A DNA stretch of 64,000 nucleotides, from assembly GCF_003865135.1 (NCBI RefSeq), contig NZ_BHZC01000001.1, positions 8,742,001 to 8,806,000 on the forward strand. The letters are read 5' to 3'. Shown here in pieces: positions 17,208 to 31,668 of this stretch (the stretch's first letter is position 1; every line of letters begins with the position of its first letter). Origin of the DNA: Streptomyces chrestomyceticus JCM 4735 (GTDB lineage: Bacteria; Actinomycetota; Actinomycetes; Streptomycetales; Streptomycetaceae). Position numbers and translations under genes: made by a program. The notes under the pieces are model-generated. The model made no database searches. It was not told the DNA's origin and saw only the letters and a program-made list of their open reading frames with translations.

Positions 17208-20192
17208 TCAGACCTCCAGCATCGCGGCGAGCACCGACCGCCAGTCCTCGCCCGGACGCTCCGTCAGTTCGTCCGCGAGCGTGCGGGCGGGACGGTAGCG
17301 GCGGCGGTGGTGCAGCAGGAAGTCCGGCCCGGCCGCCGCGCCGGTGCCGTGCTCCGCCGCGCCGTCCGCGCCCGCATGCGTGGCGTGGATCTCGCTGGAG
17401 CTGCCGAGCAGCCGGATCAGCTCGGCGGCGAAGTCGCGCCAGTCGACGTGGCCGCCGACCGCGTTGACCACGCCGCCGCCCGGCCGCTCCACGCAGCTCA
17501 CCAGCGCACGGGCCAGCGCCGCGCCGTGCACCCAGGGCGCGCCGTACCAGCCGCGCTCCCGTGCGGGCAGCTCGATCGGCTCGCCGTTCCGCGCGGCCTG
17601 GAAGAACTGGCCGGTGGCGCCCCAGCGCAGTTGGTCGCGCAGCCTGGCGTGCGGGCCCCACACGATGGGCACCCGCACCACGGCGGCCGCGCCCCGCCCG
17701 CCGGTCCCGGCGGCCTCCAGCAGCATCCGTTCGCAGTCGAGCTTGGCCCGGCCGTACGCGGTGAACGGCCCGGTGGGCGCGGTCTCCTCGGTCACCTCGG
17801 TGACCGGCGGCTGCCCGTACGCGTCCACGCTGCTGACGAAGACGAAGGTGCCCCGCCGCCACCCGTCCAGCGCGGCGCGCATGGCCGCCAGGTCCACCTC
17901 GGGGGAGGTGAAGGTGCAGGCGGCGTGGATCACCGCGTCCGCGCCGGCGGCGGCCGACCGCAGGCTGTCCGGGTCGCCGAGGTCCCCTTCGCACACCTCG
18001 ATGCCGTCCGCCGCGAGCAGGTGCGCCGACTCGGGCCGTACCAGCGCCCGTACGGGACGGCCGCGTGCCGCCAGCTCCCGCAGGACGAAGGCGCCCACGC
18101 CGCCGGTGGCGCCGGTGACCAGGACCGTCCCGGTGCGGGCCGCCGCAGGCCGCGCGGCACGAGCAGGCGCGTCCGCGGGCCGGGCCGCGCTCTGTACGGC
18201 GGCCAGTGCCGTCGCGCGTTCCTCGCTCCGCTCGTCCAGCAGGGCCGCGATGGCGCGCGGGCTCCGGTGCTCCATCACGTCGAGGCCGGTCAGCGGCAGG
18301 CCCAGCCGTTCGCGCAGCCGGTCGGCCAGTTGCACCGCCAGCAGCGAGTGCCCGCCGAGCAGGAAGAAGTCGTCGTCCAGCGCGGGCCGCCGCCCCAACA
18401 GCTCGGCGAACGCGTCCAGTACGGCCTGTCCGCGCACTCCCACGGTTGCGGAGGGCGCGGCCGTCGCCGGTGCGCCCGGCAGACGGCCGCGGTCCACGCC
18501 ACCGTCGGCCGTACGCGGCAGTACGTCCAGGACCGTCACCGCGGCCGGGACCAGCTCGGGAGCCAACCGTGTACGCAACGCGGCCCGCAGGCCCATGGGG
18601 TCGAGGGAGCCCGTGCGGCTCGGCACGACGTACGCGAGCGGCGGGCGGCCGTCGATCTCCAGCAGGAAGGCTTCGGCCACTTCCGGCCGGTCGCGGAGGC
18701 ACCGCTCTGCCGGGTGGGCCGTCGCCGCGCCGTCCGGGGCGCCGGATGCGCACTGCGGCCTGGCGAGCGGGTGGCCGGGGTCGGCGGCCACCGCCGCCAG
18801 CAGGTCGGCGAAGCCGCGCAGCAGCCGGTGGGCCGTCCGCTCGTCGAGCCGCGCCCGGTCGTACTGCACCAGGCAGCGCGGCGGCGCGCCGTCGCTGCGG
18901 TCCTCCTCCACGTAGAAGCCGAGACCGAACTTGGCCGTCTCCAGGTCGACCTCGACCGGTTCGCTCACCAGACCCGGCAGCTCCAGGGCGGCAGGCGCCC
19001 GCAGCACATCGGCCGTGACGTCCACCAGCGGATGGCCGTCCGCCCCGCGGGCCGCCGCGCCGAGCCGCTCGACGATCAGGTCGAACGGCACGTCCCGGTG
19101 CTGCTGCGCCTCCATCAGCGCGTCCCGTACCCGGTCCAGCAGCTCGCCGAAGGTGCCGGTGCTCCGCGCGTCCACCCGGACGGGCAGGGTGTTCACGCAC
19201 AGGCCGACCAGCTCCCGGATCTCCGCCCGGTCGCGGTGGCTGCCCGCGCAGCCGAGCACCAGGTCCGTACGGCCCGTCTGCTCCAAGAGGGCGGCGTACG
19301 CGGCGGCCAGGACGACGGTGAACAGCGTGCTCCGGTGCTCCCGGCCCACCGCGCGCAGCCCTTCGAGGACGGCGGGCGGCAGCGGCTCGGCGAGCAGTGC
19401 GGCCTGTCCGCGCCGGGCCGGGGCGCCGGAGTCCGCGGCCGGGGCGGGCAGCGGCACTGGCCGGGCGCCCGCGAGTCGCCCTAGCCAGAACTCCAGGCCG
19501 TTCTCCAAGGCGTCCACAGCGGCGTGCTCGCGGCGCGCGTAGTCCGCGTACTGCGGCGCCGGGGTGGCGAGCGTGCCGGGCAGCTCCCCGGTCAGCGCGT
19601 CGTCACCGTCGAGCGCCGCCTCGTACAGCGCGCCCAGCTCGCGCGCGACAATGGCCAGCGAGCCACCGTCGATGGCGATGTGATGCAGCGTCAGCAGCAC
19701 GGTGTGGTCCTCGGCGGCATGCCGTACGGCCAGCGCGCGCAGCACCGGACCGCTCGCCAGGTCGAAGGGCCGCTCTGCGGCCTCCCGCAGCAGCTCCGCC
19801 ACGTCACCGTCCGCCGTCACCACCTCGACCGGCACCGGACCAGCGTCCAGCGCCTCCTGGTACGGCTCGCCGTCACGCTGCCCGTACCGCATACGCAGCA
19901 CCGCGTGACGGCGTACGAGAGCGGTCAGCGCCCGCCCCAGGGCTTGCGGGTCGAACGGCCCGCGCACCCGGGCCGCGAACGGTACGTGGTACGCGGCGCC
20001 GCTGCCGCCGAGACGGTCCATCAGCCACATGCGGCGCTGGGCCGCGGAGAGCGGTGCGGGACCTTCTGTGCCTTTTGTGTCTTGCGTGTCGGTGGCGTCC
20101 GTAGGCGCCACGCTTCCGCGCTTGGCGGCCTGTCGCTGACGGGCGATCCGCAGCAGCGCCGCCTCGCGGGCAGTGTCCGGAGCGGTGGTCAT
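17208..20192 (-). CDS. NRPS module: C - vestigial A - T - Rossmann oxidoreductase
   Basis: 994 residues, last gene of the NRPS operon. Residues about 45-480 are a condensation domain with intact HHIAIDG (170-176). Next comes only the C-terminal subdomain of an adenylation domain (AEAFLLEIDGRPPLAYVV to VLPRTADGGVDRGRL); the A1-A7 core is absent and the catalytic Lys of the usual NGKVDR is Gly. A carrier domain (DDFFLLGGHSLLAVQ) follows. The last 330 residues are a Rossmann domain with TGATGGVG and YGRAK (YxxxK), closer to extended SDR/epimerases than to a textbook thioester reductase. The carrier must be loaded in trans. The ATG at 20192 overlaps the upstream stop (ATGA). Confidence 0.88.
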   Translation of the reverse strand: MTTAPDTAREAALLRIARQRQAAKRGSVAPTDATDTQDTKGTEGPAPLSAAQRRMWLMDRLGGSGAAYHVPFAARVRGPFDPQALGRALTALVRRHAVLRMRYGQRDGEPYQEALDAGPVPVEVVTADGDVAELLREAAERPFDLASGPVLRALAVRHAAEDHTVLLTLHHIAIDGGSLAIVARELGALYEAALDGDDALTGELPGTLATPAPQYADYARREHAAVDALENGLEFWLGRLAGARPVPLPAPAADSGAPARRGQAALLAEPLPPAVLEGLRAVGREHRSTLFTVVLAAAYAALLEQTGRTDLVLGCAGSHRDRAEIRELVGLCVNTLPVRVDARSTGTFGELLDRVRDALMEAQQHRDVPFDLIVERLGAAARGADGHPLVDVTADVLRAPAALELPGLVSEPVEVDLETAKFGLGFYVEEDRSDGAPPRCLVQYDRARLDERTAHRLLRGFADLLAAVAADPGHPLARPQCASGAPDGAATAHPAERCLRDRPEVAEAFLLEIDGRPPLAYVVPSRTGSLDPMGLRAALRTRLAPELVPAAVTVLDVLPRTADGGVDRGRLPGAPATAAPSATVGVRGQAVLDAFAELLGRRPALDDDFFLLGGHSLLAVQLADRLRERLGLPLTGLDVMEHRSPRAIAALLDERSEERATALAAVQSAARPADAPARAARPAAARTGTVLVTGATGGVGAFVLRELAARGRPVRALVRPESAHLLAADGIEVCEGDLGDPDSLRSAAAGADAVIHAACTFTSPEVDLAAMRAALDGWRRGTFVFVSSVDAYGQPPVTEVTEETAPTGPFTAYGRAKLDCERMLLEAAGTGGRGAAAVVRVPIVWGPHARLRDQLRWGATGQFFQAARNGEPIELPARERGWYGAPWVHGAALARALVSCVERPGGGVVNAVGGHVDWRDFAAELIRLLGSSSEIHATHAGADGAAEHGTGAAAGPDFLLHHRRRYRPARTLADELTERPGEDWRSVLAAMLEV

Positions 20193-31668: not shown

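Follow-up and report, generated by a model that had tools for sequence, protein, structure and literature searches.

A likely antipain/chymostatin-type nonribosomal peptide synthetase operon in Streptomyces chrestomyceticus JCM 4735

Organization of the operon

The window analysed here is a stretch of 64,000 nucleotides from Streptomyces chrestomyceticus JCM 4735 (assembly GCF_003865135.1, contig NZ_BHZC01000001.1, positions 8,742,001 to 8,806,000 of the forward strand), and its subject is a nonribosomal peptide synthetase (NRPS) operon of seven minus-strand genes, which span window positions 17208-31668 as defined by open reading frames with refined starts. The condensation (C), adenylation (A) and carrier (T) domains are divided over several proteins, which are accompanied by an exporter, a flavoprotein and, at the end of the last protein, a short-chain dehydrogenase/reductase (SDR) domain. 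The genes are listed from the first to the last.

30343-31668, minus strand: MFS exporter of 441 residues (PF07690, 6.4e-30), the first gene of the conserved order
28542-30116, minus strand: stand-alone divergent C domain, assigned by family, by profile match to solved C domains and by fold
25213-28404, minus strand: C-A-T protein with a C domain of the urea-forming type (Pfam; EHHLIHDG at 27989-28011; A code DVENVGAIT)
24056-25216, minus strand: acyl-CoA-dehydrogenase-like flavoprotein (PF00441, PF02770 and PF02771; IIEGTSEIQ motif)
22050-23966, minus strand: A-T 1 (Pfam; A code DPKIVGAVV)
20189-22048, minus strand: A-T 2 (Pfam; A code DAFVLGGTF)
17208-20192, minus strand: C-(A remnant)-T-SDR protein, with the SDR part at 17208-18152 (Pfam and SDR motifs)

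An earlier, sequence-only reading of this DNA had described seven leftward genes with these domains, and all of them are present with support from Pfam, family or fold. The named domains of the seven proteins score above the Pfam cut-offs, except for the stand-alone C domain and the A remnant. The reading had also noted overlaps of 1-4 bases at several junctions. Two of the six junctions do overlap, by 4 bases each (C-A-T/flavoprotein and A-T 2/C-T-SDR), whereas the other four are gapped, with 1 base between the A-T 1 and A-T 2 genes and 89, 137 and 226 bases at the remaining three. Its domain tally holds when counted by Pfam and motifs: four carriers with GG[HN]S are found together with three complete A domains, two A-T proteins have no C domain, and no Pfam match to a thioesterase is obtained in any of the seven operon proteins.

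The reading frames are open, and the catalytic motifs inspected in the C domains, carriers, flavoprotein and SDR domain are intact, with the stand-alone C protein carrying a variant motif, DHAVCDE. A decayed operon is unsupported, given these open frames and a truncated A domain that recurs across the family.

Related loci and the urea signature

Twenty-three stand-alone C proteins were aligned and used to scan species-representative genomes, and the best 80 of the 95 resulting stretches were used. Of these 80 loci, 75 share the gene order of the operon: 45 read MFS-C-CAT-AT-AT-CTR, and 30 include the flavoprotein gene (MFS-C-CAT-ACAD-AT-AT-CTR). In three of the remaining loci (L017, L021 and L060) the contig ends after the second gene, and the other two (L079 and L080) are rearranged. 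The rearranged loci contain the flavoprotein gene, and L080 shows unusual A codes, DALFGGAVV in A-T 1 and DVFWLGGVF in A-T 2; as a guess, these two loci may direct the synthesis of other capreomycidine aldehydes, elastatinal for example. Of the 199 Streptomyces genomes searched, 19 encode a protein related to the stand-alone C protein at E≤1e-40, counting the genome of the window itself, and relatives also occur in Kitasatospora, Nocardia and Planomonospora. Additionally, A-T 1 and A-T 2 lie in one open frame in eight loci (L011, L012, L013, L015, L016, L018, L019 and L025), which supports the view that the A-T pair works as neighbours.

The C domain of the C-A-T protein contains EHHLIHDG. No other motif of the EHHxxHDG type occurs in the genome of 9.38 Mb, and the reversed control has 0; EHHL[IVT]HDG is kept in all 77 loci that have the C-A-T gene. 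EHHxxHDG is described as the signature of urea-forming C domains, for which the urea's terminal residue usually comes from the loading A-T protein and its internal residue from the C-A-T protein (PMC11212132, in part). Judged by this signature motif, the C domain of the C-A-T protein is of the urea-forming type.

S. rimosus NRRL WC-3904 (L020/L089) has the same seven genes in the same order, the flavoprotein gene included. The proteins of L020 are 77-96% identical to those of the window over the matched parts, and the A-T 2 code DAFVLGGTF is identical; the genome behind this locus yields one strong match to the stand-alone C protein and two weak ones. In WC-3904, the overlap between A-T 2 and the terminal protein may differ in frame. 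In S. rimosus ATCC 10970, biosynthetic gene cluster (BGC) 35 carries the label 'Deimino-antipain (66)' and is assigned the products chymostatin A, B and C (PMC13098539 and PMC9045324, both in part). Systems of this kind have thus been described before, and in the case of the S. rimosus relative so has the product.

The sequence-only reading could match the gene order to no known pathway, regarded the operon as an orphan and called for a search for homologous clusters that keep the same order. The search described above places the order in the antipain/chymostatin family of ureido tetrapeptide aldehydes, and the S. rimosus cluster, for which a product is known, matches it closely and in the same order. 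The operon is not an orphan, since the gene order, the urea signature and the S. rimosus product assignment all match. An orphan pathway of unknown order and product is highly improbable in view of this match, which comes from comparison of loci and from the literature.

Locus L072 belongs to strain NRRL B-3066, reportedly the deimino-antipain producer in the 2016 work of Maxson, which PMC12783407 cites. It resembles the window in its order of exporter, stand-alone C, urea-type C-A-T, A-T, A-T and C-T-SDR. It differs in that the flavoprotein gene is missing from the locus and, at E≤1e-60, from the genome, and in that Gly occupies the position where the motif of the window's stand-alone C protein has Glu; the residues of the deimino-antipain product presumably differ from those proposed for the window. 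For antipain, MIBiG BGC0002051 is given (PMC10548850). As described, the omicsynin cluster of Streptomyces sp. 1647 is like the window in that its NRPS genes number five and encode three A domains; it also has a terminal reductase (R) domain, essential and of the short extended-SDR type, and an arginine cyclase gene, of which the window's flavoprotein gene is the proposed counterpart. It is unlike the window in the extra genes omnR and omnG and in a wider product mix (PMC12783407, in part).

The stand-alone C domain

The stand-alone C protein of the window gives no match to PF00668 or any other Pfam family, and its HHxxxDG motif is replaced by DHAVCDE (29508-29534). At E≤1e-3, 399 proteins match it (7995 candidates scored), and many of the 120 relatives listed carry PF00668. 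Its profile matches solved NRPS C domains with a best E of 1.8e-16, and the predicted model has the C fold, with a mean predicted local distance difference test (pLDDT) score of 79. On the strength of family and predicted fold, the protein belongs to the C domains.

In the window, Glu is residue 201 (29514-29516) and takes the place that Gly normally has in HHxxxDG. All 32 loci that contain the flavoprotein gene likewise have Glu here, whereas 43 of the 45 loci that lack the gene have Gly, L057 and L069 being the exceptions. A tree of the C-A-T proteins was built from 77 loci and the window (L017, L021 and L060 have no C-A-T gene and were dropped), on which the Glu/Gly switch appears as one change and the flavoprotein gene as three; a comparison of independent pairs on this tree gives no significant association between the two. 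The Glu/Gly difference is weak evidence of co-evolution between the stand-alone C domain and the flavoprotein. It seems very doubtful that the Glu grips the capreomycidine donor or helps to close it, so that the C domain, and not an A domain, would proofread cyclized against open arginine.

The flavoprotein

Of the 77 loci that carry a C-A-T gene, 32 have the flavoprotein gene and 45 lack it. In the biosynthesis of both muraymycin and chymostatin, according to work by Cui from 2021, an FAD-dependent dehydrogenase:cyclase is reported to form (2S,3S)-capreomycidine while the intermediate is bound to the NRPS. By analogy, the flavoprotein of the window most likely turns carrier-bound Arg into capreomycidine. 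Literature searches with general terms turned up no paper on the flavoprotein itself.

If the flavoprotein were inactive or had another role, the open Arg would stay and the product would resemble MAPI, which is Phe-CO-Arg-Val-phenylalaninal. The assembly line does not need the flavoprotein, since the 45 loci do without it, and its status as a counterpart of AnpI/OmnC is putative, both of which leave room for such a product. However, the frame in the window is intact, IIEGTSEIQ is present there and in 32 of 32 loci having the gene, and the protein is 96% identical to that of S. rimosus, which make an open-Arg product quite improbable. Nine genomes with flavoprotein-free loci were searched whole, and eight of them, NRRL B-3066 included, contain no match at E≤1e-60. 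In the ninth, the genome of L023, a flavoprotein relative of 51% identity lies away from the flavoprotein-free cluster (G016:C59:221377-222525).

RedW and PigA are prolyl-carrier dehydrogenases, that is, members of the acyl-CoA-dehydrogenase family that act on a carrier-bound amino acid. The window flavoprotein is like them in family and unlike them in its profile scores, which reach 205.5 bits for RedW (NF045652) against a cut-off of 650 and 174.5 bits for PigA against a cut-off of 500. Additionally, none of the three A codes resembles the proline code. A proline/pyrrole route is rejected on these two grounds.

The terminal protein and release

The A remnant of the terminal protein matches AMP-binding_C with 21.6 bits, below the cut-off of 24.5; the A core is absent, and Gly replaces the A10 Lys (DGGVDR). 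In a poorly conserved region, the A10-equivalent residue is never Lys in 51 mappable related loci. The remnant is not expected to work, since the core is absent and Gly stands in place of the A10 Lys.

The C-terminal part shows the SDR motifs TGATGGVG and YGRAK and an Epimerase-type Pfam match. Its predicted model (mean pLDDT 64, which is moderate) is most like a UDP-sugar epimerase, in agreement with the sequence search. A canonical thioester reductase domain was considered and rejected, as TIGR01746 scores 29.8 bits against a cut-off of 213.35. By motifs and model, the C-terminal part is classed as an extended SDR, set apart from canonical R domains. The R domains of the family are described as short and distinct from earlier R domains, and removal of the R domain of OmnF abolished the aldehydes and left free acids (PMC12783407, in part). 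The SDR part is seen by its glycine motif in 48 of the 80 loci and by a complete YxxxK motif in 39 of 80, because the fetched stretch ends inside the terminal gene in many loci. When the remainder of the terminal gene was fetched for S. rimosus and CB02923, the SDR part was found to be intact in both, with terminal proteins 81% (over 1-993, with the same SDR motifs) and 87% identical to that of the window.

Proposed assembly and product

Taken together, the operon is read as a discrete NRPS cluster of the antipain/chymostatin family that makes a ureido tetrapeptide aldehyde, a protease inhibitor, with a probability of roughly 0.9. Chymostatins end in phenylalaninal, and their scaffold is Phe-CO-capreomycidine-(Leu/Val/Ile)-phenylalaninal. 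That the product of this strain contains both capreomycidine and phenylalaninal is considered probable. The genes, motifs, codes, conserved order and distribution of the flavoprotein gene are observed here; the residue identities, the partner that loads in trans, the stage at which cyclization takes place and what this strain produces are inferred, the last of these counting against the reading.

In the proposed scheme, A-T 1 would load Phe and start the chain, and the urea-forming C domain of the C-A-T protein would link Phe to Arg by bridging their amines with a carbonyl. Desaturation of the carrier-bound Arg would then fall to the flavoprotein, and closure of the guanidine onto C-beta would give capreomycidine, which the stand-alone C domain would join to the Leu, Val or Ile held on A-T 2. 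A second Phe, loaded in trans onto the terminal carrier by the A domain of A-T 1, would be added by the C domain of the last protein, after which the SDR domain would reduce the thioester and release the aldehyde, to be exported by the MFS protein. The three C domains correspond to the three linkages, namely Phe-CO-Cap (Cap, capreomycidine), Cap-(Leu/Val/Ile) and (Leu/Val/Ile)-phenylalaninal. Because Phe would be used twice, three A domains can serve four carriers, with the terminal carrier loaded in trans. A-T 1 has no C domain of its own because it would be the chain starter, A-T 2 would be served by the stand-alone C domain, and no thioesterase is needed because the SDR domain would release the aldehyde.

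The sequence-only reading had suggested a short peptide of perhaps three or four residues with reductive or redox release, which agrees with the roughly four residues and SDR-type release expected from the family match. Its dehydrogenated unit survives in part: dehydrogenation is likely, but it is most likely transient and ends as cyclic capreomycidine. A urea was not foreseen, and the first linkage should be one, judged by EHHLIHDG.

The residue names (Phe, Arg and Leu/Val/Ile) are drawn from the products of relatives and not from the codes. The C-A-T code DVENVGAIT is nearly constant over 77 loci, and the A-T 1 code begins with DP in 70 of 71 mapped loci. Several further points weigh against the reading. 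The codes were read by anchor motifs in GrsA numbering, and DPKIVGAVV does not look like a textbook Phe code, so that Phe for A-T 1 rests on the products of relatives. The product assignment concerns S. rimosus ATCC 10970, whereas the compared locus, L020, is from another strain, and BGC 35 and L020 are linked here by species. The flavoprotein is proposed as the counterpart of AnpI/OmnC from the gene distribution and a published abstract. The gene omnC is counted as extra to the reported antipain-like clusters (PMC12783407, in part), a statement that fits NRRL B-3066 and is ambiguous for chymostatin.

Carrier loading also belongs among these points. The terminal T domain is 26% identical to the T domain of A-T 1, 36% to that of the C-A-T protein and 37% to that of A-T 2, and A-T 1 is its nearest carrier in none of 46 scored rows (window included). 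The comparison gives no clear signal of the loader and, if anything, argues against a terminal carrier that simply imitates the one in A-T 1. The sequence does not identify the A domain by which the terminal carrier is loaded, and A-T 1 is a putative partner.

The same assembly line would give an omicsynin- or antipain-like argininal if the A domain of the C-A-T protein loaded the terminal carrier with Arg. This outcome appears unlikely because the closest product-assigned cluster, that of S. rimosus, is reported to give chymostatins A-C, which end in phenylalaninal. It would nevertheless suit a terminal module that has no A domain and whose T domain is closer to that of the C-A-T protein than to that of A-T 1. 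Additionally, omicsynin B has a C-terminal arginal, and one cluster is described as giving antipain, chymostatin and more (PMC12783407, in part). Trans loading of a module without an A domain has a precedent in capreomycin, where the A-less module CmnI is served by an A domain that belongs to a different module (PMC12400406, in part).

Flanking genes

The genes next to the operon in the window are as follows.

16137-17135, minus strand: trypsin-like protein, with Trypsin_2 just below the cut-off, 72 bases downstream of the operon
31935-32642, minus strand: protein of 235 residues with no Pfam match; three of the 80 loci (L009, L010 and L020) have a relative close to the exporter
32741-34492, plus strand: TAP-like hydrolase, kept in the nearest relatives
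35327-36676, plus strand: secreted-protease-like by eye, with no Pfam match

No relatives of the proteins at 16137-17135 or 35327-36676 are found in the 80 loci at E≤1e-8, most of which end before the downstream side. About 3.8 kb of downstream sequence from S. rimosus and about 8.9 kb from CB02923 were read, and no such protease gene appears among the listed matches of more than 40% identity. Relatives of the 16137-17135 protein occur in each of the 12 genomes that were searched whole, but in only one of these genomes does a relative reach at least 60% identity (61%, in the genome of L051); this relative apparently lies about 17 kb from the cluster. The flanking proteases are unsupported as a conserved part of the cluster, as none lies beside it in the two relatives read downstream. 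From its open frames, the region 11741-16085 on the plus strand looks by eye like a urease operon. The host is an NRPS-rich strain, with 71 condensation-domain matches in one 9.38 Mb contig.

Implications

The present analysis removes a false orphan. At the confidence given above, the apparently broken domain bookkeeping of the S. chrestomyceticus operon would be the normal logic of a widespread family of protease inhibitors.

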